Part shown: piece after piece, positions 2 to 10,767 of the stretch
How the letters are laid out: each line of letters opens with the position of its first letter
Numbering within the stretch: the stretch's first letter is position 1
DNA from: an uncultured Gammaproteobacteria bacterium
GTDB taxonomy: Bacteria > Pseudomonadota > Gammaproteobacteria > SZUA-140
Reading direction: 5' to 3'
NCBI GenBank assembly: GCA_945787585.1
Contig: CALZIG010000030.1
Coordinates: 1-10,767, forward strand
DNA length: 10,767 nt
Notes under the pieces: generated by a model
Seen by the model: only the letters and a program-made list of their open reading frames with translations
Databases searched by the model: none
Told to the model about the DNA's origin: nothing
Made by a program: the position numbers and the translations under genes

Positions 2-904
2 CTGACGAGCGAGGTGTTTGCGGTAGTGGATGGGGAGGTCATTTCGCAGCAGACGTTTGATACGTTTATGCACGTGGGGAAGCGGCAGCGTTTTTTTCAC
101 GGTGATATCCCTGAGCAGCAGCTGGCTGAGTTTCGCAAGGAAGTGGCGCAGCGCTTGATCGATCAGGTGTTGTTACGTGCTGCGGTGCGGGAGCGACAGA
201 TCAAACCGGATCCTGAGCAGGTGAAGGCGCAACTGGCAGCGATTGAGGCACGCTATGAGGCGCGACCGCAGTGGCAGGCGCAACGTGAAGGGTTGCTGGC
301 GGAGCTGCAGCCGCAGGTGGAGGAACAGAGCCAGCTGGCGCAGCTTGAAGCGCAGGTGAGGCGGGTGGAAGTGGTAGATAGCGCAGGGGTAGAGGCCTAT
401 TATCATGCCTACCCTGAGAAATTTACCACGCCGGAGCGGGTACGAGTTTCGCTGATTCTGCTGGGGATTGAGCCCTGGGCGCAGGCGGCGCGCTGGCAGG
501 CGGCGGAGGATGAGGCGCAACGGTTGATCAAACAGTTGCAGCAGGGGGGCGATTTTGCCGAGATGGCGCGGCTGCACTCAAGTGACAGCTCTGCGCTTAA
601 GGGCGGGGACCTCGGGTATGTGCACCAGGGGATGCTGGCAGAAGCGGCGCAGCGGGTGATTGATGGCCTGAAGCCGGGGGAGGTTTCAGGGGTTGTCCGC
701 TTGTTGAAAGGGATTGCGATATTCAGAGTTGAGGAACGGGTTAAACCTGTGTTGAACCCTTTTGAACGAGTCGCAACGCGTGTGCAGGAATTGTATGTGC
801 GTGAAATAAGTAATAAAAATTGGCGTAAATTTATTGATGAGATGCGCAGCAGTGCCGACGTTAGGGTAAGAGATCCATTGCTGCTACCAACGAACAATGA
901 GTAG
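2..904 (+). CDS. SurA/PpiC-type peptidyl-prolyl cis-trans isomerase (5' partial)
   Basis: This is a periplasmic foldase of the parvulin type, expected to catalyse proline isomerisation and to chaperone exported proteins. Numbering from the GTG at 14, residues 1-120 form a helical, Gln/Glu-rich SurA-like chaperone region starting VVDGEVIS. Residues about 141-242 match a parvulin domain, with SSDSSALKGGDLGYVHQGML (189-208) the diagnostic stretch, and a helical tail follows. The frame stays open upstream of GTG14 to the window edge (LTSEV before FAVVDG), and a start at GTG14 would leave no signal peptide. I therefore treat the gene as 5'-truncated, with the real start and export signal outside the window. 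It precedes the barrel gene by 67 nt, which fits a dedicated folding helper for the barrel or cytochromes (inference). The family assignment is firm; the client proteins are unknown. Confidence 0.88.
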   Translation: MTSEVFAVVDGEVISQQTFDTFMHVGKRQRFFHGDIPEQQLAEFRKEVAQRLIDQVLLRAAVRERQIKPDPEQVKAQLAAIEARYEARPQWQAQREGLLAELQPQVEEQSQLAQLEAQVRRVEVVDSAGVEAYYHAYPEKFTTPERVRVSLILLGIEPWAQAARWQAAEDEAQRLIKQLQQGGDFAEMARLHSSDSSALKGGDLGYVHQGMLAEAAQRVIDGLKPGEVSGVVRLLKGIAIFRVEERVKPVLNPFERVATRVQELYVREISNKNWRKFIDEMRSSADVRVRDPLLLPTNNE

Positions 905-971: not shown

Positions 972-2765
972 GTGACTAGGCGAATGGCGGATCAGCGGCA
1001 TTTTGGCCTGATCACGTGCGCGGTGTTGTTGTGCCCGCTCGCCGCACCGCTGGCCGCGCCTGTCGATCTCTCCGGTGAGGTCGGCTACGCCTATCGCATG
1101 CTGAAGAGTGATACAGAAGAGACCGTCAGTAATCAGCTGCGCGGCGCCATCCGCGGTCAGACCTATATTTCGCAGCCGTGGATTGCGACCGTCAATGCCA
1201 ACCTGCGCATGACGCAGGACAACACCAGTTATAGTCTCACCTCGAATCCGAATGTCAATGACAGCACCTCTACACTGACCACCGGCGAGCTCAATCTTAA
1301 TGTGATCCCGCAGAGTCGCTTTCCGTTGTCGATCTCCTATCAGGCCAATGATAGTCGCGTGGACACAATGAATACGATCACCAGCCCGCTGACGGCTTCG
1401 GGTAGCCGTGAGTTTGAGACGCGCCGTTTATCGATTCGACAGAGCGCGGATCTGCGTGAGCTCGGACGCTATCAGATTAACTATGATGCCAACACGTGGG
1501 AATCGACCAATAGCGAAAAGTACAGTGACTGGTTAGTGGGTGCCAATGGCGATATCAACTGGGATAAAAATCGCCTACAGCTGCGCGGTTACTATAAAGT
1601 GATTGATCGCGCCGCGCTGGGTCAGGAGTCGACGAATACGACGTTGAGTGGCGACCATTTTTGGTATCTGACACGGGATTTAAGAGTAGACAGCTCGGCT
1701 GATTATTATAATTATGAGACTAAGTCATTGCCATCAGCGGTCGTGTTTAGTAACGGTGAGCGTGAGACGACCAGTGAGCAGCTCTCAAGTTTTGTCTTCT
1801 GGCGTCCAACGGATAGTCCCTTTACTGCGAGTGCAGGCGTCAGGGTTTTTATGTTAGACAGTGAGGCCGGTTCTAGCAATTCGGGGCCGAGTGTGATCGC
1901 TAATGAAACAGAGCTGACGAGTGTTAATGCCACGGCTGGCGGGATGTATCAGCACACCAAGAATCTTCGTTTCGACACCAATGTGAACTTTTCCGTCAAT
2001 GATAATGGCGCTGAGAATAATAATTCTCACCTTGCGCGTGTGGGTGCACTGTTTCAGTCAGATTATTATGAGGTGCTTGGTGGGGCGAGTTATCAGTGGT
2101 ACGCCTCCAGTGCGGGGCAGATACAAAAGTCTGGTGATGACGATCGCAATACGCTCAGCGCGAATCTGGGGCACGATGTGAATCGTGCCTGGATGAATGA
2201 CGATAAAACCTCGACGCTGCGTGTAGGCCTCAGTCAGGCGCTGAACGCGGCCTTTGAGGGGGGTGATGCTGACTCTGATACACAACGACTGGATCACTCT
2301 GCGACTGCCGGCTGGGATAGTTATGGTGGTAGTGGCACCACTTATGCGGCCTTGACGCTGTCTGATGCACGCACCTTTGGGGACAGTGAAAGTGACCAGC
2401 AACTGGTTAATGCGCAGCTCTCTCGAACCCAGAATTTATCCCGTCGCAGCTCATTAACGGGTAATATTACTGCGCAGAGTGTCAGTCAGAAATTTTCCGG
2501 ACAAAGTGTCAGTCAGACGGCAACCACCACCACAGGATCGCTGAATTATCAGCATTCGCGGCTGTTTGGGATGCCGCGTTTGCGTTTTGGTTCGGATCTG
2601 AGGTTGTCGCGTGCATCGGAATCGCAGGGCGTGGATCGCTCTGAGTGGGAAAACCGACTGGATTATAGTGTCGGTCTAGTAGATACTAGGGCGAGTTGGC
2701 GCCTGATTGATGCTGGGGAGCAGGATTACAGTTTAGTGTACTTTCAGGTTACACGACGTTTCTGA
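972..2765 (+). CDS. Outer-membrane beta-barrel, putative electron-conduit porin
   Basis: A 597-residue exported protein with an N-terminal signal peptide (hydrophobic core LITCAVLLCPLAAPLAAP, cleavage near residue 29). After it come many alternating polar/aromatic strands, such as RLQLRGYYKVIDR, and Asn/Ser/Thr-rich loops. It ends in YFQVTRRF, a terminal Phe signature recognised by the BAM machinery. Length and composition fit a large barrel of about 20 or more strands. The only Cys residues are in the signal peptide, so the N-terminal CXXC of MtrB is absent; this is not an obvious MtrB homologue. Cytochrome neighbours suggest it sheathes a multiheme cytochrome across the outer membrane (inference). 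The start is uncertain: GTG 972 gives MTRRMADQ and ATG 984 gives MADQRH. Both have weak ribosome binding sites, and I chose GTG for its more basic N-terminus. Barrel is confident; conduit role moderate. Confidence 0.82.
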   Translation: MTRRMADQRHFGLITCAVLLCPLAAPLAAPVDLSGEVGYAYRMLKSDTEETVSNQLRGAIRGQTYISQPWIATVNANLRMTQDNTSYSLTSNPNVNDSTSTLTTGELNLNVIPQSRFPLSISYQANDSRVDTMNTITSPLTASGSREFETRRLSIRQSADLRELGRYQINYDANTWESTNSEKYSDWLVGANGDINWDKNRLQLRGYYKVIDRAALGQESTNTTLSGDHFWYLTRDLRVDSSADYYNYETKSLPSAVVFSNGERETTSEQLSSFVFWRPTDSPFTASAGVRVFMLDSEAGSSNSGPSVIANETELTSVNATAGGMYQHTKNLRFDTNVNFSVNDNGAENNNSHLARVGALFQSDYYEVLGGASYQWYASSAGQIQKSGDDDRNTLSANLGHDVNRAWMNDDKTSTLRVGLSQALNAAFEGGDADSDTQRLDHSATAGWDSYGGSGTTYAALTLSDARTFGDSESDQQLVNAQLSRTQNLSRRSSLTGNITAQSVSQKFSGQSVSQTATTTTGSLNYQHSRLFGMPRLRFGSDLRLSRASESQGVDRSEWENRLDYSVGLVDTRASWRLIDAGEQDYSLVYFQVTRRF

Positions 2766-2816: not shown

Positions 2817-3254
2817 ATGTCGTCTAAGATCAAGCGTAACGTGTTGAAATCGATGATCATAGGGGTGTTGGCCTACATGGGAGCCCTGGGGGTCCCGCAA
2901 CCTGCGCAAGCAGAGTATGCCGATGTCGTGATCAATAATTATGCCGATGCAGCGGGCATGCGCCCGGCGGTTTTTCCGCATTGGTTCCACCGTATTCGTT
3001 TCCGTTGCAAGGTGTGTCACGCGGATCTCGGGTTCGCATTTAAGGCGGGCGGTAACAAAATCACGATGGCGAAGATCATCGATGGTAAGTTTTGTGGCGC
3101 TTGTCACAATGGTGAAATTTCATGGTCAGTTGAAAACTGTGCCATGTGCCATTCCGGTAATCCGGGCACCCCGACCCACTTTCACGGCAGTACGGTACAG
3201 CGTCTGATTGCGCCGGCCTACAAGCCGCTTAAAGCTACAGATACCAAGAAATAA
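2817..3254 (+). CDS. Periplasmic triheme c-type cytochrome (c3/c7-like)
   Basis: A 145-residue small cytochrome expected to shuttle electrons in the periplasm. A signal peptide (MSSKIKRN basic start, cleavage after AQA at residue 32) precedes three heme sites: CKVCH (64-68), CGACH (93-97) and CAMCH (108-112). FPHWFH (53-58) before the first heme supplies candidate distal His ligands, a pattern typical of c3/c7 cytochromes, and TPTHFH (118-123) adds two more His. The core between hemes 1 and 2 (GNKITMAKIIDGKFCGACH, 79-97) matches the cytochromes at 3267 and 5409, so all three are related. Unlike those, it lacks an N-terminal extension of about 100 residues. It is 12 nt upstream of the next cytochrome gene. 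Heme binding is near certain; redox partners are unknown. Confidence 0.93.
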   Translation: MSSKIKRNVLKSMIIGVLAYMGALGVPQPAQAEYADVVINNYADAAGMRPAVFPHWFHRIRFRCKVCHADLGFAFKAGGNKITMAKIIDGKFCGACHNGEISWSVENCAMCHSGNPGTPTHFHGSTVQRLIAPAYKPLKATDTKK

Positions 3255-3266: not shown

Positions 3267-3935
3267 ATGAATCATAAAACAAAAGCTATCTCCTTTTCAT
3301 GTGCAGTAATGATGGCTGCATTTTTGTGGAATGCACAAAGTCACGCAGCAGAGGCGGGAGAGAATGCAGCGCCTTTGATGTTAGCTGAAGTGTCCGGACC
3401 TAATACATTCAATCTTAACTTGAAGAAGCCGAAGGCACGTAACCTGCCGCCTGCTGAAGATGGTATTCATGACCCTGAAAATGAAGCGACCCATTCGTTG
3501 CAGCATCCGCTTGAGGCATATAAAGGATTACCGACCAGCGAGTTTGGTAACTATGTAGATTGGGTGAAGGCGCTTGATGAGGGTAAGTTACGGCCTCGCT
3601 GGGACCGTGCCGATCCCAATGATGAGCCTTTCGTGATGGATCTTGATATTGTGCGTCCAGTGAAGGCTTCTGTGCCTGATGTGGTGTTTCCACATCGTCA
3701 GCATACCGAGTGGCTTTACTGCTCAAACTGTCATCCAGCCATCTTTAAACCACAACGACTGGCGAACCAAATCAGCATGTCTGCGATCCTGTTGGGGCAG
3801 AAATGCGGCGTATGTCACGGTAAAGTCTCTTTTCCAATTGAGACGAAAACCTGCCGTAAGTGTCACTCTAAGCCAAAACCAGCCGATTGGCAGCCGCCTT
3901 TGAGTGAGGCGACATTGAAGAATCCCTGGAAATAA
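3267..3935 (+). CDS. Triheme c-type cytochrome with N-terminal extension
   Basis: A 222-residue exported cytochrome: signal peptide with cleavage around SHA/AEA (residues 27-30), an extension with no heme motif (about 31-138), then a triheme c7-like domain. Hemes are CSNCH (152-156), CGVCH (180-184) and CRKCH (196-200), preceded by FPHRQHTEW (141-149), which gives likely distal His ligands. The extension carries AEDGIHDPENEATHSLQHP (63-81) and YVDWVKALDEGKLRPRW (96-112). Both are shared with the cytochrome at 5409, so the two are paralogues with a common fused domain whose function I do not recognise. The C-terminal tail (201-222) is Pro/Lys-rich. It is probably periplasmic and closes the first block, being followed by a terminator-like hairpin. 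The heme assignment is firm; the role of the extension is open. Confidence 0.93.
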   Translation: MNHKTKAISFSCAVMMAAFLWNAQSHAAEAGENAAPLMLAEVSGPNTFNLNLKKPKARNLPPAEDGIHDPENEATHSLQHPLEAYKGLPTSEFGNYVDWVKALDEGKLRPRWDRADPNDEPFVMDLDIVRPVKASVPDVVFPHRQHTEWLYCSNCHPAIFKPQRLANQISMSAILLGQKCGVCHGKVSFPIETKTCRKCHSKPKPADWQPPLSEATLKNPWK

Positions 3936-3983: not shown

Positions 3984-4014
3984 ACATCGGGTGAATGCTT
4001 CGCCCGGTGTCTTT
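3984..4014 (+). terminator. Putative rho-independent terminator
   Basis: A 12-bp hairpin: 3984-3995 (ACATCGGGTGAA) pairs with 3999-4010 (TTCGCCCGGTGT), with two G-T wobbles and a 3-nt loop. A short, imperfect T-tract (CTTT) follows. An A-rich stretch lies upstream, so it could act in both directions. It is in the 140-nt gap after the 3267 cytochrome and before the cupredoxin gene, the longest gap in the cluster, so it probably splits two transcription units or gives partial read-through. Confidence 0.55.
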
Positions 4015-4075: not shown

Positions 4076-5407
4076 ATGCAAATACCACTTTTGAGGTACT
4101 ACCCCGTTAAAGTTGGGATGATGTCTGTCCTGTTGGCGCTGTCTGCGCCTAGTTATGCTGTAGATGACGATTGGGGTGATGAGGAACAGATTGATATTGC
4201 AAAGATTTTTGTAATATCGTCAGAAGAAAAACCAAAATCGCATCCTTTTCATGGGGTTGGCCACAAGCTCGGACTGGACGTTGATGGCGTGGCTGGAAAG
4301 GAGTTGGTGTTAACACGAGGGGAAAGCTACGCCTTTCGCGTTGAGACAGATATTCAGCATGATGTTTACCTGTCGACCGAGGCGGTCGGGCGCGGTGCCT
4401 CAGTATTTGCTGATGGGGTGAAAGGTAACTTTACCTATGCCGGTATTGTGACCATTGAGACCTCTAATAAAACACCGAAGGAACTTTATTACGCTTGCCG
4501 TAATCACAGCTATATGGGCGGCAAAATTCATATCGCGAACCCAGGTGAAGAGAATAAGGTAGTGTTGGGTCAGATTGATACATCGTCTTTCCCCGCAACT
4601 AAACCACCGAAACCGATATCGTTAAATACGGTAAAACAGAAAATTAGCTTCGCAGACATGTTTGTCAGTCAGTCTTCAGCGGCAACACGTGTGGGCAACA
4701 GTGATAATGACAAGGCGAAGGTGGCCTATACCGATGCCCATGAGCGCCTCAATAAGGCAAAAGTGGCGATGGACGCGGGTGATCTGATGCTGGCATTGAG
4801 TGAAGTTGATGAATCGTTGCGTTCGATGAGTACAGCAGCGCGACTGGTGCCGACGCCTGAGCAGCTGGCGGAACAGCAACAGATGTTTGTCGCTTTGATG
4901 GAAGAGGTAAAGACCTTCGAACAGTCATACAAGCGCAATGTTGAACGGATGGAAAAGAGTGGGCGCACCGATGTACGTAAACACCTGAGTTATGCAGAAC
5001 TGGAAAGTACCGTTGAAGCGGCGGAAAGTCTACATGAGATAAACGAAATTGCTGCGGCCAATCGTTTGATGAAAACTTTACAAAAGACAATTACTACTGC
5101 ATTAGGTAAGATACTTGAAAACCAGACCGTGGTTTATGATAAGACGTTTGATACGCCATTAGAAGAATATGAATATGAGCTGGCGCGTTATTTGAGCTAC
5201 GAAGAGCTGGTTCCTTTGGCGATTGAGCAGAAGCGCCCATCTAAGCGGGCGGTTGAGTTAATGGATCAGTTCGTTGTGAAAGGCAAAAAAACTTATAACG
5301 AGTCGTTGCCTGTGGCTAAAAAGAAGGATTACAAAACCGCGATACTGATGTTGCAGGGTGCAACTTTTCAAATACAGCGTGCATTACGGATGGTGGGAGT
5401 GAGATAG
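4076..5407 (+). CDS. Exported cupredoxin fused to a helical repeat domain
   Basis: A 443-residue protein with a signal peptide cleaved after SYA (residue 28). Residues about 45-153 resemble a cupredoxin: beta-rich, with His95 in DIQHDVYLS and YYACRNHSYMGGKIHI (138-153). The latter gives Cys141, His144 and Met147, and with His95 these form a complete type-1 (blue) copper ligand set. Copper electron transfer is therefore predicted. A Lys/Pro linker (about 172-190) joins a mainly helical region. In that region residues about 220-259 (AHERLNKAKVAMDAGDLMLA and onward) and 405-440 (KTYNESLPVAKKKDYKTAIL and onward) resemble each other, suggesting internal duplication. No CXXCH is present. The gene starts the second block and lies 1 nt upstream of a triheme cytochrome. 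An electron relay or docking adaptor between copper and heme carriers is inferred. I recognise no named family for the whole protein. Confidence 0.82.
   Translation: MQIPLLRYYPVKVGMMSVLLALSAPSYAVDDDWGDEEQIDIAKIFVISSEEKPKSHPFHGVGHKLGLDVDGVAGKELVLTRGESYAFRVETDIQHDVYLSTEAVGRGASVFADGVKGNFTYAGIVTIETSNKTPKELYYACRNHSYMGGKIHIANPGEENKVVLGQIDTSSFPATKPPKPISLNTVKQKISFADMFVSQSSAATRVGNSDNDKAKVAYTDAHERLNKAKVAMDAGDLMLALSEVDESLRSMSTAARLVPTPEQLAEQQQMFVALMEEVKTFEQSYKRNVERMEKSGRTDVRKHLSYAELESTVEAAESLHEINEIAAANRLMKTLQKTITTALGKILENQTVVYDKTFDTPLEEYEYELARYLSYEELVPLAIEQKRPSKRAVELMDQFVVKGKKTYNESLPVAKKKDYKTAILMLQGATFQIQRALRMVGVR
5395..5399 (+). promoter_or_regulatory. Ribosome binding site inside the cupredoxin gene
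   Basis: GGGAG lies 9 nt before ATG 5409 and within the last codons of the cupredoxin gene. It supports ATG 5409 over the in-frame ATG at 5421 as the start, and implies translational coupling across the 1-nt gap. Confidence 0.5.
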
Positions 5408-5408
5408 C

Positions 5409-6059
5409 ATGACGCAGGCCATGAATCAACGATCACAGAAGATACTACCCGCATGGGGGTGGTGGCATGTGGTCGCATTCGTGGCCTGCTTTACCTTTGC
5501 TTTGCCTGGCAATGCTGCTGATATTGATGCAGCGCCGGCCGCTCAATCATCAGAGCCTGGCATTACTGCGGTATGGTCGCGCGGGCTTCATTTTCAAACG
5601 GAAGGTGAGGTGGTCCCACTGGCTGAGGATGGTATACATGATCCTGATAACGATGCCGTGCATCTACTTCAGGAGCCCTATGAGTCGATGGCAGATTTTC
5701 CGCGAGACTCACAGGGGATCATTGACTGGGTGCAGACGTTGCGTCAGGGGCTGATTGACCCGCGCATGAGTCTTAATGGCGACGATATTATGTATCCGGT
5801 GGATTTCGATATTATCTTTAAAAACACAGGTTCGATGCCGCATGTGCGGTTTCCACACCAGCAGCATACAGAGTGGCTGACCTGCGCGAATTGTCATCCA
5901 TTGATCTTCATTCCGCAAAAGGGCGGAAATCCCATCTCCATGTCAGCGATTATTCAGGGTGAATATTGTGGTGTCTGTCATGGTAAAGTCGCCTTTCCAC
6001 CTACAATGAATTGTGGCCGATGTCATTCCGTTCCAAATCAAGCCAACTTGCGACGCTAA
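5409..6059 (+). CDS. Triheme c-type cytochrome, paralogue of 3267-3935
   Basis: A 216-residue cytochrome with a signal peptide (hydrophobic core HVVAFVACFTFALPGNA, cleavage near 36). The extension carries LAEDGIHDPDNDAVHLLQEP (71-90) and IIDWVQTLRQGLIDPR (104-119). FPHQQHTEW (148-156) precedes hemes CANCH (159-163), CGVCH (187-191) and CGRCH (202-206). Order, heme spacing and extension all match the cytochrome at 3267, so the pair arose by duplication. They differ in tail length and in the linker sequence before the hemes. The two copies flank the cupredoxin gene, so one may be its specific partner (inference). The start at 5409 is supported by an upstream GGGAG; ATG 5421 is the alternative. 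The 3' end overlaps the next gene by 40 nt. Confidence 0.92.
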   Translation: MTQAMNQRSQKILPAWGWWHVVAFVACFTFALPGNAADIDAAPAAQSSEPGITAVWSRGLHFQTEGEVVPLAEDGIHDPDNDAVHLLQEPYESMADFPRDSQGIIDWVQTLRQGLIDPRMSLNGDDIMYPVDFDIIFKNTGSMPHVRFPHQQHTEWLTCANCHPLIFIPQKGGNPISMSAIIQGEYCGVCHGKVAFPPTMNCGRCHSVPNQANLRR

Positions 6060-7336
6060 TCGCACTGAGTGCCGTCCTCCTGCTTGGGGGGTGCACCATG
6101 CTGTCCAAAGACGGGGCAGTCAAACCGGCGCAAAAAAAACAACAGTCGCTCTATGGCTGGCGTGATATTGATGGCGGTTTTGAAGGCAGTGGCATCACCG
6201 GCAAACGCCATGTGCGTTTTTTACGCCCAGTGCAGGTTGCCGCGCGCGGCAATTTTGTCTTTATCGTCGATGCTGGGGCCGATTTACTTTATCGATATGA
6301 GCTTGCCCGTGACCAGTTGACTGTCGTCATGGACCTTAATCATGTCACTGCGGGTGAGGTCTCTGACATTTACCTCTATCCCGATCACTCATTTTTGCTG
6401 GTCGATCCCGATTCTGCACGTGTGCTTCATTTTGATCGAAATGGGCGCTATATCCGCACCTTTGAGGATCGTCTCAATCTGATTCGCCCTGTGGCGGTCA
6501 CCTATGACGAAGCGATGGGCCGGGTGTTGATTGCCGACGGTTCCAGTGATGACATTCTGGTATTCACCACCACCGGTCAATTGCAGGGGGTGATTGGTGC
6601 GCGTGGTGTTACAGAAGGACGCTTCCTGAATATTACGGCGATTACTTCTGGCGAGGATGGTATCTATGCCACCGCGCGCCTGGGTCATCGCGTGCAGTTG
6701 ATGGGGCGTGACGGCAGCCATCGCAAGACGTTTCAGCCCGACACGGTGGTCTTTCCACTGGCGATCGCGGTCGACCGCAGCCACAACACCTTCGTCAGTG
6801 ATTACCTTGATAACTCCATCAAAGTGTTTCGAGACGGCCTGTTTCTTGAGAGTATTGCCGGTTCGGGCGCTGGGCCGGGGCGCTTTAAGCGCATTAGCGA
6901 TCTGTGGTACGACGCCGGCTTTCTCTATGCGGTGGATAGTCTGAATGGGCGGATACAGATTTTACGGGTAGAGGTGGTGGAGCCTATTCTACCGATCGAG
7001 AACGAAGATGAGGCATTCGAAGCAGAGGCCACGGCGGCGGCGATTGCGGAAGAGATGAGTGCTGAAGATGATGTGCCGGATGGCGCGGCTGCAGCGCCAA
7101 CACCCGCACCTGTTGAAGCGAAAAGCGTCGCGCAACAAGAGCTGGAAGCTGCGCAGAGTGAACTGGAAAAAATCCAGTCTGAACTGGCAGCTGCACGCGC
7201 TGAACTAGAAGCGGCGCAGGCAAAAAACGCGAGCGAAGCGGATAAACGTGCCCCTTCGGACGTAGATGAGGCCGATGCTTCGCAGGTGAACGGCTCGTCT
7301 GCCAGTGATACCGCTATCAGCGATACCCCGGAATAA
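6020..7336 (+). CDS. NHL-repeat beta-propeller lipoprotein with coiled-coil tail
   Basis: A 438-residue lipoprotein. The signal ends in a lipobox LGGC (residues 22-25) with Thr at +2, so outer-membrane sorting is expected. Residues about 52-318 hold NHL/six-bladed propeller repeats, for example VAVTYDEAMGRVLIADGSSD (158-177) and LAIAVDRSHNTFVSDYLDNS (247-266). An acidic Ala/Glu-rich tail follows, with a coiled coil at about 371-402 (QQELEAAQSELEKIQSELAA) and a polar Ser/Asp end. No CXXCH or catalytic motif is visible, so a scaffold or protein-binding role near the conduit is likely (inference). ATG 6020 is chosen; TTG 6011 is an alternative that only adds three residues. Starting later would lose the lipobox. 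The gene therefore overlaps the preceding cytochrome by 40 nt, and its ribosome binding site is weak, so expression probably depends on translation of the upstream gene. Confidence 0.85.
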   Translation: MSFRSKSSQLATLIALSAVLLLGGCTMLSKDGAVKPAQKKQQSLYGWRDIDGGFEGSGITGKRHVRFLRPVQVAARGNFVFIVDAGADLLYRYELARDQLTVVMDLNHVTAGEVSDIYLYPDHSFLLVDPDSARVLHFDRNGRYIRTFEDRLNLIRPVAVTYDEAMGRVLIADGSSDDILVFTTTGQLQGVIGARGVTEGRFLNITAITSGEDGIYATARLGHRVQLMGRDGSHRKTFQPDTVVFPLAIAVDRSHNTFVSDYLDNSIKVFRDGLFLESIAGSGAGPGRFKRISDLWYDAGFLYAVDSLNGRIQILRVEVVEPILPIENEDEAFEAEATAAAIAEEMSAEDDVPDGAAAAPTPAPVEAKSVAQQELEAAQSELEKIQSELAAARAELEAAQAKNASEADKRAPSDVDEADASQVNGSSASDTAISDTPE

Positions 7337-7342
7337 TTCCCC

Positions 7343-8419
7343 ATGAAGCGTCTTCCCTACCATTGGCTGGCGGTATCGTTATGCCTGCTGCTTGCGGGCT
7401 GTGCGAGTGCGCCCGCGGTGTTGAATTATGATCTGCAGGCGTCTGGTAGACATGTCTGGCCAGTCGAGCCTGAAATCCCACGTTATCAGTATGTGGGACA
7501 GTTAACCGGCGAAGAAAACTTCGTGAAAGCGAAGGATGATGTCTCCGTCGGGCGCAAAATGTTTGACTGGCTGGTGGGAATCGTCGCCGGAGAAGAGGCC
7601 CCTACCGTGCTACAGCGTCCGCAGTCCGGTGCGGTCGATCGTGATGGCCGCGTCTATGTGACCGATGTCAGCCGCGCCGCGGTTTATGTCTTTGATAAGC
7701 CGGGTGGTCGACTTGCGGTGTGGGAGATGGCCGGCGAGCAGACGCGCTTTAAAACGCCTATCGGTCTGGTGGTGATCGAGCTGGGTGAGGGCAAGCGTGA
7801 AATACTGGTGGCCGACGCTGATCTTAAACACGTCGCCAGACTCGATCAAAACGGCAAGCCACTGGGCCATTTCGGTGAAGGTGAGCTGGTGCGCCCGACA
7901 GGGCTGGCACGCGATCCGCAGAGCGGTCATGTTTATGTTGCCGATACGCACGCCCATGACATCAAGATTTTTGATGCCAGCGGTGCCTTACTAAAGACTG
8001 TGGGCACGGGCGCTAGAGGTGAAGGGGTCGATGCATTTAATTCCCCCACCCACCTATCCTTTGCCAATGGACAGCTTTATGTCAGTGATACGCTCAATTC
8101 ACGGATCAATGTCTTTACCGCAGAGGGTGAGTTTGTACGCACGTTTGGGCGTCGCGGTCTCTTTGTCGGTGACCTGCCGCGGCCGAAAGGGGTAGCGGTT
8201 GATAAAGACGACAATGTCTATGTGGTGGAATCCTATTATGATCATCTGTTAGTATTCGATAACAAAGGGAATTTACTTTTGCCGATTGGGGGCTCGGGTA
8301 GCAGTGTAGGGGAGTTTTACCTGCCTGCTGGCATCTGGACAGATCACCAGGACAGGGTATATGTGGCTGATAGTTTTAATGGTCGAGTAGTGATATTGCA
8401 GTTTTTGGGGGGGGCATGA
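7343..8419 (+). CDS. NHL-repeat beta-propeller lipoprotein
   Basis: A 358-residue lipoprotein with signal MKRLPYHWLAVSLCLLLAGC (lipobox LAGC, 17-20; Ala at +2 fits outer-membrane sorting). A short linker precedes about six NHL blades (about 85-355). Typical blade cores are GAVDRDGRVYVTDVSRAAVY, PTGLARDPQSGHVYVADTHA and PKGVAVDKDDNVYVVESYYD. It lacks the coiled-coil tail of its neighbour but shares its fold, and the two may be old duplicates. It starts 6 nt after the preceding gene, with a weak GGAA site. Its last codons run through TTTTTGGGGGGGG, and its TGA overlaps the next start as ATGA. No catalytic residues are recognised. NHL propellers usually bind proteins or ligands, so scaffolding of the electron conduit is inferred. 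Confidence 0.87.
   Translation: MKRLPYHWLAVSLCLLLAGCASAPAVLNYDLQASGRHVWPVEPEIPRYQYVGQLTGEENFVKAKDDVSVGRKMFDWLVGIVAGEEAPTVLQRPQSGAVDRDGRVYVTDVSRAAVYVFDKPGGRLAVWEMAGEQTRFKTPIGLVVIELGEGKREILVADADLKHVARLDQNGKPLGHFGEGELVRPTGLARDPQSGHVYVADTHAHDIKIFDASGALLKTVGTGARGEGVDAFNSPTHLSFANGQLYVSDTLNSRINVFTAEGEFVRTFGRRGLFVGDLPRPKGVAVDKDDNVYVVESYYDHLLVFDNKGNLLLPIGGSGSSVGEFYLPAGIWTDHQDRVYVADSFNGRVVILQFLGGA
8402..8419 (+). promoter_or_regulatory. T5-G8 tract and ATGA stop/start overlap
   Basis: Five T (8402-8406) then eight G (8407-8414) lead into CATGA, where ATG 8416 (cytochrome start) overlaps TGA 8417-8419 (NHL stop). The G-run can pair with the anti-Shine-Dalgarno, though it is very close to the ATG. Termination-reinitiation coupling is the simplest reading. 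In the NHL frame the tract reads ttG GGG GGG, a possible -1 slippery heptamer. Confidence 0.5.
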
Positions 8420-10767
8420 GACGCCATTTTACAGGTACGTTGTTGATCCTGGTTGCTATTCTATCGATACCTTTGTCGATGACAGAGCCTGCTTACGCCG
8501 CCAGAATCTCGGATATCTCGAACACCAAGCATAACTTTTCTGCGACCGTCGCGCCGACCGAAACCGTACGTAACGCCAGCGCCGTCTCAGAGTCACAGAT
8601 CTGCGCGTTTTGCCACACCCCGCACGGCGCGACCAATGAACCTCGTACACCACTGTGGAACCGTACCCTGTCGAGCGCCACTTACACCCCTTATTCATCG
8701 ACATCGTTGGACGCGACCGATTTAGGGCAGCCGGAAGGCAAATCCAAACTCTGTCTGTCGTGTCATGATGGCACGCTTGCGCTCGGTTCGGTGAATGTAC
8801 TGAATCGTGTCGAACTCAAGAAAGAGGGGCGCACTGTGCCGTTTCAGGGGACTCGCGCGGATGGCTCGATTCCTGATGGCCTTGGTGAGACCACCGGTTT
8901 CACCCGCCGTATTGGCGCGGACCTGAGTAATGATCACCCGATCTCATTTACCTTTGACAGCGCGCAGGCTGCGCGTGACGGGGAGCTGTATAACCCGGTT
9001 TCTGAGCTGCATATTAAAGAACGTTCGCCGGGCAGCGGGCCGCCGTTCCCGCAGTCACAACACACCGGCGTGCAGGGGTATTTGCCGCTTGAAGGTGGGC
9101 AGGTGGAGTGTATTACCTGTCATGACCCGCATGTACGTTCGGATGACCCGAACGAAGGCAATATCAAATTTTTACGCGTCAATCGTATTCAGCGCAATGC
9201 GGAACCAGTGGATGGGCAATTTAACGCGGATAACGACATCATCTGTATCGCCTGTCACGACAAGGCGGGCTGGGTCGGTTCTGCGCATGCGAATCGCCTG
9301 GCGGGTGATGAACGATACACTGTGCCCGCAGGTGATCTGCGTGAGTTCCCGCGTGATACCCAGGTGTGGCAAGCGGCCTGTCTGAATTGTCACGATCCAC
9401 ACACAGTACAGGGATCGCGCCGCATTTTACGTGAAGGTACTGATGGCCCCACCGCGATTGATCCAGCAACGGGCGCAAAATTTAAGCAGGGCGGTGATCA
9501 CGCCATCGAAGAGGTCTGTTTCGCCTGCCATTCACTGGATGGCGGCACGCTCGCCGGACAGGGTGTCGGGGGTGTGACCGGTGGTTTTCAGGTACCGAAT
9601 GTGAAGACTGACTTTGTTACCCCGGGCAATACCCATATGCCGTTACAGAGTGCCGATCAGCGCGCCGGTCGAGAAGTGCATTCCATCGGTACCGGTGGGG
9701 ATGGCTCTGAGGGGCTGACCCGTGGGCAGGATTTTGTCGAATCGCCGGAGAAGATGGGCAAGGGCAACCTGATGAATCGTCACGTCGAGTGTACCGATTG
9801 CCATAATCCGCACCGTGTCGCCAAAAACCGTATGTTTAATGCCAATAACGCCATTCCTGATGATGCTGGCACACATCCGCACACACCGGGAGACCTCGCC
9901 GCGAATGGCTTAACAATGCACACTAATCTTGCATCTGGGGTGCTGCGCGGAATTACCGGCGTTGAGCCGGTGTACGGCTCCCCTGCATTTTTCAGTGAAC
10001 CTGTCAGTTTTACGTTGAAACGTGGTGACCCGGGCACGGGCGGCGATACCAATGTCGATGCACCCCATGTAACGCGTGAATATCAGGTCTGCCTCAAGTG
10101 TCACTCAAACTACGCCTACGACACGCCACCGCCTTTGGGGCTGCACGGCGGCAGTACCGCGGTCGGCACCAATGCGATGTTTGAATACACCAATCAGGCG
10201 ATGGAGTATCAGGCACCCGAAAGCCATATGGGTGAGGCGAGTTCTACGCCTGCACCGGGTTGGGGGCCTTTTGTTGGAATCGATGCCGGCGGTAATAATG
10301 TGGATTATGAATTCGAGAACCATCGCTCATGGCACCCGGTGATTAAAAAGACAGGCAGGACCGCGGGCGCGGGTAACTCTTTTACTGGGAGCGAGCGTTT
10401 AGCCGCTTCCAATGTCTGGCGCACACCATTCAATATTACCGGTGCCGTAGGTAACCAGACGATGTACTGCACCGATTGTCACGGTAACAATACCGCCAAT
10501 ACTACCGTCATCCCGAACGGCGGTGTCAATGGTGAAGTCTGGGGGCCGCACGGCTCGCAGAATAACTTTCTGCTGAAAGGCCCATGGGATGACAAAACGG
10601 GTAACGGCGGCGGTGATGCGCAGGATGGCCTCTGTTTTAGATGCCATGATTATCAGCAGTATGCAGAGAATTCGACCGCAGCGGTGCTTGCCAGTGGCTT
10701 TAAACGAGGGGGCGGCGGCGGGGGATGCCTGACTTTTAATGCCTCTACTAATCTACACCGTGCACAC
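8416..10767 (+). CDS. Large multiheme c-type cytochrome (3' partial, at least 10 hemes)
   Basis: The frame from ATG 8416 stays open for 784 codons to the window edge, so the gene is 3'-truncated. A signal peptide (MRRHFTGTLLILVAI start, cleavage after AYA at residue 28) has no lipobox, so the protein is periplasmic or secreted. Ten CXXCH motifs start at residues 63 (CAFCH), 113 (CLSCH), 232 (CITCH), 277 (CIACH), 322 (CLNCH), 368 (CFACH), 459 (CTDCH), 559 (CLKCH), 685 (CTDCH) and 740 (CFRCH). CAFCHTPHGA with PLWNR just after it is typical of doubled-CXXCH cytochromes. Hemes 1, 3, 5 and 7 are CHxPH and the even ones are not, suggesting paired heme modules. Long Gly/Asn/Thr-rich stretches separate later hemes, as in extracellular cytochromes. 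The start overlaps the NHL stop (ATGA). It is likely the long-range or cell-surface electron conductor; total heme number is unknown. Confidence 0.93.
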   Translation, partial: MRRHFTGTLLILVAILSIPLSMTEPAYAARISDISNTKHNFSATVAPTETVRNASAVSESQICAFCHTPHGATNEPRTPLWNRTLSSATYTPYSSTSLDATDLGQPEGKSKLCLSCHDGTLALGSVNVLNRVELKKEGRTVPFQGTRADGSIPDGLGETTGFTRRIGADLSNDHPISFTFDSAQAARDGELYNPVSELHIKERSPGSGPPFPQSQHTGVQGYLPLEGGQVECITCHDPHVRSDDPNEGNIKFLRVNRIQRNAEPVDGQFNADNDIICIACHDKAGWVGSAHANRLAGDERYTVPAGDLREFPRDTQVWQAACLNCHDPHTVQGSRRILREGTDGPTAIDPATGAKFKQGGDHAIEEVCFACHSLDGGTLAGQGVGGVTGGFQVPNVKTDFVTPGNTHMPLQSADQRAGREVHSIGTGGDGSEGLTRGQDFVESPEKMGKGNLMNRHVECTDCHNPHRVAKNRMFNANNAIPDDAGTHPHTPGDLAANGLTMHTNLASGVLRGITGVEPVYGSPAFFSEPVSFTLKRGDPGTGGDTNVDAPHVTREYQVCLKCHSNYAYDTPPPLGLHGGSTAVGTNAMFEYTNQAMEYQAPESHMGEASSTPAPGWGPFVGIDAGGNNVDYEFENHRSWHPVIKKTGRTAGAGNSFTGSERLAASNVWRTPFNITGAVGNQTMYCTDCHGNNTANTTVIPNGGVNGEVWGPHGSQNNFLLKGPWDDKTGNGGGDAQDGLCFRCHDYQQYAENSTAAVLASGFKRGGGGGGCLTFNASTNLHRAH

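Follow-up and report, generated by a model that had tools for sequence, protein, structure and literature searches.

What does a copper site do inside a cluster of multiheme cytochromes? The question is raised by contig CALZIG010000030.1 of an uncultured gammaproteobacterium, analysed here over its entire 10,767 nucleotides as the window; the contig belongs to an incomplete genome (86 percent complete, 321 contigs). The initial annotation had called an open reading frame of 443 amino acid residues on the plus strand at 4076-5407, with His95, Cys141, His144 and Met147 as copper ligands, and the frame and the four residues are present there. By gene order, the 443-residue protein is UetF of the Uet cluster. 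At a probability of about 0.5, we infer that its copper site would act as an electron relay within a Uet-type conduit and that its helical part would be a scaffold for triheme cytochromes, a reading that starts from the modelled structure. The protein is composed of the following parts.

4076-5407, plus strand: UetF-slot protein, 443 residues, with signal peptide, cupredoxin, linker and helical domain
4076-4159, plus strand: predicted signal peptide, residues 1-28, cut after ...SYA as judged by eye from the sequence
4193-4540, plus strand: predicted cupredoxin domain, residues 40-155, from the AlphaFold2 model and structure matches
4358-4360, plus strand: His95, predicted copper ligand, identical in 120/120 aligned sequences
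4496-4516, plus strand: Cys141-x2-His144-x2-Met147, predicted copper ligand loop, each ligand identical in 120/120 aligned sequences
4541-4621, plus strand: variable linker, residues 156-182, mean pairwise identity 23 percent
4622-5389, plus strand: helical domain, residues 183-438, from the model and the alignment

The fold was predicted with AlphaFold2 from 120 sequences (mean predicted local distance difference test score, pLDDT, 86.8; predicted template modelling score, pTM, 0.53). In the model, strands run from 41-51 to 149-154 and are followed by helices over residues 183-438. The strands, about eight in number, form a Greek-key beta-sandwich as in type-1 copper cupredoxins, the fold on which the initial annotation had staked its claim, and the structure matches of the model were led by rusticyanin and the N-terminal domain of copper nitrite reductase. 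The proposed fusion of a cupredoxin to a helical domain was borne out by these strands, helices and matches. His95 is placed by the model between strands 84-90 and 97-100, and the Cys-x2-His-x2-Met stretch spans from the end of strand 136-141 to strand 149-154. This ligand order, with the last three on one loop, is the usual one for type-1 copper proteins. Sequence searches of solved structures recovered no cupredoxin and gave weak rows only (an antibody, a cytolysin and designed proteins; best E 0.0056 and 0.0043), so the fold is claimed from the predicted model. The overlap with rusticyanin was loose (template modelling score 0.42 by target length). Rusticyanin of Acidithiobacillus ferrooxidans is a single domain, whereas the window protein is a fusion, and its His143 and Met148 are five residues apart according to the titles of structure entries, compared with three for His144 and Met147 here.

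The alignment behind the ligand counts holds the window protein and 119 relatives, from the 120 listed of 244 found, and no homologue lacking Cys141, His144 or Met147 is among its 120 sequences. The His, Cys, His and Met residues were likewise kept in 34 of 34 fusion loci (33 genes, with L076 and L111 being one gene; L073 is the window), a count that is conditioned by the picking of the frames with a C-x-N-H-x2-M motif. All four are retained in the divergent L054 protein, which is 31 percent identical. Mean pairwise identity was 58 percent in the beta domain, compared with 47 percent in the helical domain and 23 percent in the linker. The UetF-slot protein therefore probably carries a cupredoxin with a type-1 copper ligand set, as far as the model can be followed.

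Cupredoxin relatives that stand alone in L057, L114, L115 and L116 also retain the ligands, again a conditioned count on motif-picked frames. Two of them (L057:9263-10069 and L116:9585-10478, from two genomes of one genus) adjoin a gene for an HDOD/EAL-domain protein, and the neighbours are perhaps a copper-linked signalling pair. The Pfam family PF25489 (At5g54830-like) matched 31 of the 36 members of set A1 at E up to 0.1, with a best value of 1.8e-08, and the match falls on the cupredoxin part in the five members shown (P0010, P0015, P0026, P0030 and P0101). The L111 protein passed the cut-off of this family (E 1e-06); the window protein gave no match to it. PF25489 is named after a plant protein, At5g54830.

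The identity of the cluster was established by gene order. The Uet complex of cathode-oxidising Tenderiales comprises tetraheme UetA, prolyl isomerase UetB, barrel UetC, the trihemes UetD, UetE and UetG, the NHL proteins UetH and UetI and undecaheme UetJ (PMC10734462; this and the other PMC papers are cited for the parts consulted). UetF is present in the consulted part of this work on Gallionellaceae just as an entry in the list of search queries. The window matches the Uet clusters of Tenderiales and Gallionella in gene kinds and order from UetB to UetJ, and its UetF slot has two triheme genes before it and one after, with two NHL genes and the undecaheme gene further downstream. All nine main open reading frames of the window are on the plus strand; those around the UetF-slot gene, and a hairpin, are the following.

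2-904, plus strand: PpiC-type prolyl isomerase, UetB slot (PF00639, E 1.7e-17), 5' end beyond the window
972-2765, plus strand: presumed outer-membrane beta-barrel of 597 residues, UetC slot, assigned by slot and conservation alone
2817-3254, plus strand: triheme c7 cytochrome, UetD slot (TIGR04257, E 7.8e-18)
3267-3935, plus strand: triheme c7 cytochrome, UetE slot (TIGR04257, E 6.5e-17; three CXXCH)
3985-4009, plus strand: hairpin in the gap between UetE and UetF, 10 pairs, 2 of them changed on both sides; tied to the finding by position only
5409-6059, plus strand: triheme c7 cytochrome, UetG slot (TIGR04257, E 2.7e-18; three CXXCH)
6011-7336, plus strand: beta-propeller protein, UetH slot (PF17170, E 8.2e-07), start codon uncertain
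7343-8419, plus strand: NHL-repeat beta-propeller, UetI slot (PF01436, E 1.1e-23)
8416-10767, plus strand: multiheme protein, UetJ slot, 10 CXXCH within the window, 3' end cut

The setting between two triheme paralogues, as first annotated, was confirmed for the neighbours at 3267-3935 and 5409-6059; the cytochrome context held, and the third triheme gene at 2817-3254 had gone unmentioned. What did not hold was the treatment of the fusion as a one-off, as it is a standard component in the UetF slot of a published cluster. The UetC-slot protein had no match in Pfam and NCBIfam at E up to 1. The 23 other UetJ-slot proteins in the undecaheme tree described below carry 11 CXXCH, compared with 10 in the 3'-cut window copy, and the latter matched models of decaheme families only far below the cut-off. 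An MtrB/PioB-type barrel and a decaheme MtrA of the Mtr/Mto kind were not found in the Pfam and NCBIfam scan of the window proteins. The first 49 bases of the UetH-slot frame (6011-6059) are shared with the end of the UetG-slot gene, and the true start of UetH may lie further in. The hairpin is kept in 8 sequences of the genus (7 distinct, window included), where 98.6 percent of the cells pair, compared with 31-53 percent when the positions are slid. Its two doubly changed pairs were matched by 117 of 500 shuffles, which gives modest covariation support; it is possibly an RNA-processing or attenuation element.

The locus tags of Candidatus Tenderia electrophaga fit the window slot by slot with the same spacing, matched by gene order and not by sequence: Tel_16515 and Tel_16520 are triheme, Tel_16525 tetratricopeptide, Tel_16530 triheme and Tel_16545 undecaheme genes (PMC5371394). 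A gene order like that of this organism is also carried by genome G242 (locus L111). The consulted part of PMC5371394 describes Tel_16525 as a tetratricopeptide-repeat (TPR) protein and does not mention a cupredoxin there, whereas the window protein is a cupredoxin-helical fusion. Tel_16525 is apparently cotranscribed with three triheme genes, and on the cathode the trihemes rank with the most highly expressed genes. Peptide levels of Tel_16525 were higher at +470 mV than at +310 mV (standard hydrogen electrode), its transcripts were slightly higher at +310 mV, and the authors suggest that the protein may align cytochromes (PMC5371394). The donor electrode in that work was at +310 to +470 mV (PMC5371394). 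A cupredoxin gene in the consulted part of the same paper was considered as the UetF counterpart and rejected, as its companions there are one tetraheme gene and two diheme genes, which does not fit the slot. No description of a cupredoxin in the UetF slot was found among the papers listed by the literature searches; the article in which Uet was named (Eddie et al. 2022, mSphere 7:e0022322) was not covered, so this is not proof of novelty. The Uet cluster is already known; the cupredoxin-scaffold fusion in the UetF slot and its copper-free counterpart in sister clusters are apparently new, with priority uncertain.

The distribution was surveyed in 370 genomes of the window's class, with a completeness of at least 90 percent except for the window's own. 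The family was matched in 49 genomes: 35 full fusions, one fusion cut by its contig (G200), 11 helical-only and 2 cupredoxin-only, classes that were assigned by reading the matched ranges. All 35 full fusions had the first triheme gene on their own strand and within 1.3 kilobases (kb), so the fusion beside trihemes that the initial annotation had proposed to look for elsewhere recurs in other genomes. The undecaheme gene was 2.7-3.4 kb away in 32 of these 35. The exceptions, G210, G298 and G096 of one genus, have the fusion along with the other cluster genes (L108-L110), and their undecaheme matches are elsewhere. For these distances the 37 strongest triheme rows were used, and the undecaheme matches of G110 and G216, weak at 107 and 119 bits, were left out. 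Trihemes were seen on both flanks in 33 of the 35 fusions (L071-L100, L109, L110 and L054), with G359 and G288 not checked downstream; the set L071-L100 accounts for 30 of 30 such loci. In three rows of the window's genus the label on the downstream triheme was that of its paralogue, a probable effect of the overlap between UetG and UetH. Since all 35 full fusions among the 370 genomes lie by the first triheme gene, the association of fusion and cytochromes is more than chance.

The open reading frames of the loci were listed by a mechanical choice of non-overlapping frames. A four-heme gene directly precedes the UetB-slot gene in the relatives L032-L037; the window contig starts inside the UetB slot. 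Downstream of its undecaheme gene, L032 has ResB-like, CcsA-like (Cytochrom_C_asm), TPR and DsbA-like genes (L032:16286-19774), and ResB-like and CcsA-like genes were also seen in L055. The ResB-, CcsA- and DsbA-like genes are perhaps a private heme-attachment set for the conduit.

Whether the copper part is constant in the slot was answered by the clusters that lack it. An undecaheme match was present in 48 of the 370 genomes, 13 of them without a full fusion. Eight of the 13 (G076, G109, G166, G217, G322, G345, G379 and G386) have two tandem helical-only proteins in the slot and are called type B, those with the fusion type A. The tandem pair follows the second triheme gene in 7 of the 8; the exception is G322, whose contig begins within the first copy. 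The undecaheme gene of G109 lies on a separate contig. A scan for C-x2-H-x2-M type motifs among the open reading frames listed for the eight type B loci gave none, so no cupredoxin was seen there. The other five are G080, G095 with its broken contigs, G200 with its cut fusion, and G110 and G216 with weak matches. In G080 (L117) the cluster is present and the slot has no helical protein, and G095 has undecaheme and triheme matches on separate contigs with no fusion match. By this comparison with type B, the helical part is what stays constant, and the copper part is specific to a lineage. The helical domain had been annotated as a docking domain of the copper part; the domain itself was found, and the mere docking role did not stand, because it occurs alone and in tandem in the type B slot.

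A tree of the undecaheme proteins (24 rows) split type A (16 rows and the broken-contig L118) from type B (6 rows and L117) at 100/99. It took 16 of the 23 type A loci used for a tree of the NHL proteins; L031, L054 and L108-L110 were left out for want of a complete undecaheme gene in the stretch, and L036 and L038 as near kin. In the best reading, the cupredoxin would have been gained or lost as a module, and either direction is compatible with this unrooted tree.

The helical domain has its most conserved block of 20 residues at 363-382 (78 percent mean pairwise identity), and F358, E364, Y365, Y367, E368 and R371, in window numbering converted from alignment A3, are invariant in its 40 sequences. 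Helical-only proteins are a large family with 860 matches. Several relatives are named TPR proteins by one source. The window protein itself matched no Pfam family at E up to 1, TPR included; TPR_19 and TPR_14 were each matched weakly in one of the 36 A1 members (E 0.02 and 0.075), and a precomputed TPR accession was present in 4 of the 120 helical-only relatives listed (P0132, P0137, P0147 and P0216). Helical-only proteins also lie beside two trihemes, without a cupredoxin, in three small triheme-triheme-helical groups (L058, L059 and L119). No match for the barrel slot was seen among the open reading frames listed alongside, and the groups are perhaps a minimal periplasmic bridge module. Another helical-only relative adjoins a 920-residue LVIVD beta-propeller protein in genome G242 (L112:4261-7916).

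Judged from its sequence, the UetF-slot protein appears to be exported to the periplasm. A lipobox pattern near the N-terminus was found in 87 of the 119 aligned relatives; the same scan gave no match in the window protein. In the 87, an Ala-, Pro- and Glu-rich stretch of 69-167 residues leads up to the cupredoxin. Lipoproteins are usually sorted to the outer membrane when the residue after the Cys is not Asp. Because Asp directly follows the lipobox Cys in 0 of 87, sorting of these relatives to the outer membrane is suggested. Most relatives thus resemble lipoproteins of the outer membrane whose cupredoxin hangs from a flexible tether about 110 residues long, and the window protein looks like a form without the anchor.

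How the protein might work can be outlined as follows. After its export to the periplasm, the helical domain would bind UetD, UetE and UetG and align them into a bridge beneath the UetC barrel, and the copper site would pass single electrons between this triheme bridge and a high-potential partner. The scaffold role is proposed because the helical domain lies among trihemes in both cluster types, and the one-electron relay because the cupredoxin, apparently a module that was added or lost, has the full set of electron-transfer ligands. The range of +310 to +470 mV is usual for type-1 copper. The electrons would probably flow inward, taken up by an autotroph from minerals or electrodes. Uptake is the likelier direction because Uet is tied to cathode oxidation, RuBisCO was matched in 4 of 5 genomes of the genus (the window's own incomplete genome gave no match) and a near-full-length heme-copper oxidase in 3 of 5. 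A dsrA model passed its cut-off in none of the five and gave weak matches in all five; a NapC/CymA model matched none. In the diheme cytochrome-cupredoxin pair of A. ferrooxidans (PMC5982212, known from its search listing), a cupredoxin has likewise been studied in complex with a multiheme c-type cytochrome of an iron-oxidation chain. That pair consists of separate proteins of an acidophile and its cytochrome is diheme, whereas the window has a fusion amid trihemes.

Two observations weigh against this reading. No heme gene accompanies the helical-only proteins of L056, L066, L068, L112 and L113 within the stretch seen, so holding trihemes is not the only use of the domain. The undecaheme gene of Tenderia was not differentially expressed, and a Cyc2 homologue was (PMC5371394). 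Our confidence in the relay is reduced because of these two results, and the first two alternatives below gain weight. The NHL tree (31 rows) was poorly resolved, did not separate the types and needs 6 changes for three groups; its rows are tblastn stretches from which stop signs were to be removed, and none was present in 31 of 31. This tree counts against a simple history of the cluster types.

The absence of the cupredoxin from the slot in the eight type B genomes would also suit a different division of labour, in which the scaffold work falls to the helical part and the cupredoxin deals with copper, either by holding and delivering it, for instance to a heme-copper oxidase, or by copper or redox sensing. 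The stand-alone cupredoxin relatives, in L057 and L116 beside the HDOD/EAL protein and in L114 and L115, point the same way. However, the full Cys-His-His-Met set is identical in 120/120 sequences, and such a set is typical of electron-transfer cupredoxins and not of known copper chaperones. Moreover, no family for copper transport or oxidase assembly was present among the window genes, the cluster neighbours in L032 and the ten flanking open reading frames of L032, L047 and L111, which encode porins, EAL proteins, an ABC transporter pair and three proteins without a family. We regard copper handling as unlikely.

The other parts of the cluster could instead belong to a machine for the assembly or secretion of an extracellular cytochrome, with UetF as an assembly factor and copper as a redox check or protection. 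The prolyl isomerase, presumed barrel, beta-propellers, multiheme proteins and nearby ResB, CcsA-like and DsbA-like genes resemble the osc parts of Geobacter sulfurreducens, for which roles in making OmcS nanowires have been proposed: folding for OscH, secretion for OscE/F/G and morphology for OscD (PMC13194489, citing Shen et al. 2025). The Osc and Oet clusters of Geobacter and syntrophic sulfate reducers, likened by gene kinds, share prolyl isomerase, beta-propeller, barrel and multiheme cytochromes with the window; unlike the window cluster, they have no copper component named in the consulted parts of the accounts (PMC5539420, PMC10553843, PMC13194489). The three trihemes around UetF, with counterparts among the most expressed on the cathode (PMC5371394), are better suited to carriers, and a role in assembly seems improbable to us. 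An enzyme with an attached docking domain, such as a small copper oxidase or a nitrite reductase, is very improbable, as a single cupredoxin domain with a single conserved ligand set is predicted and laccases and nitrite reductases need additional copper centres between domains.

Returning to the copper relay on a triheme scaffold, a bolder and more doubtful extension is that Uet exists in two alternative builds, one all-heme with two helical scaffolds and the other a copper-heme hybrid, in which a tethered type-1 site may set or gate the potential of electron exit from the triheme bridge. If true, the hybrid would be a mixed-metal extracellular electron conduit with a modular copper step, acquired or lost as a unit. 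Types A and B form a ready-made contrast between a conduit that has copper and one that lacks it, and Cys141 is a point where one mutation would test the role of copper. The annotation of UetF-slot proteins, named TPR or hypothetical by the sources, is sharpened. Accounts of outer-membrane electron conduits generally present them as heme chains, and a copper site in the scaffold of a widespread conduit would alter models of high-potential electron uptake by cathode- and mineral-oxidising bacteria.
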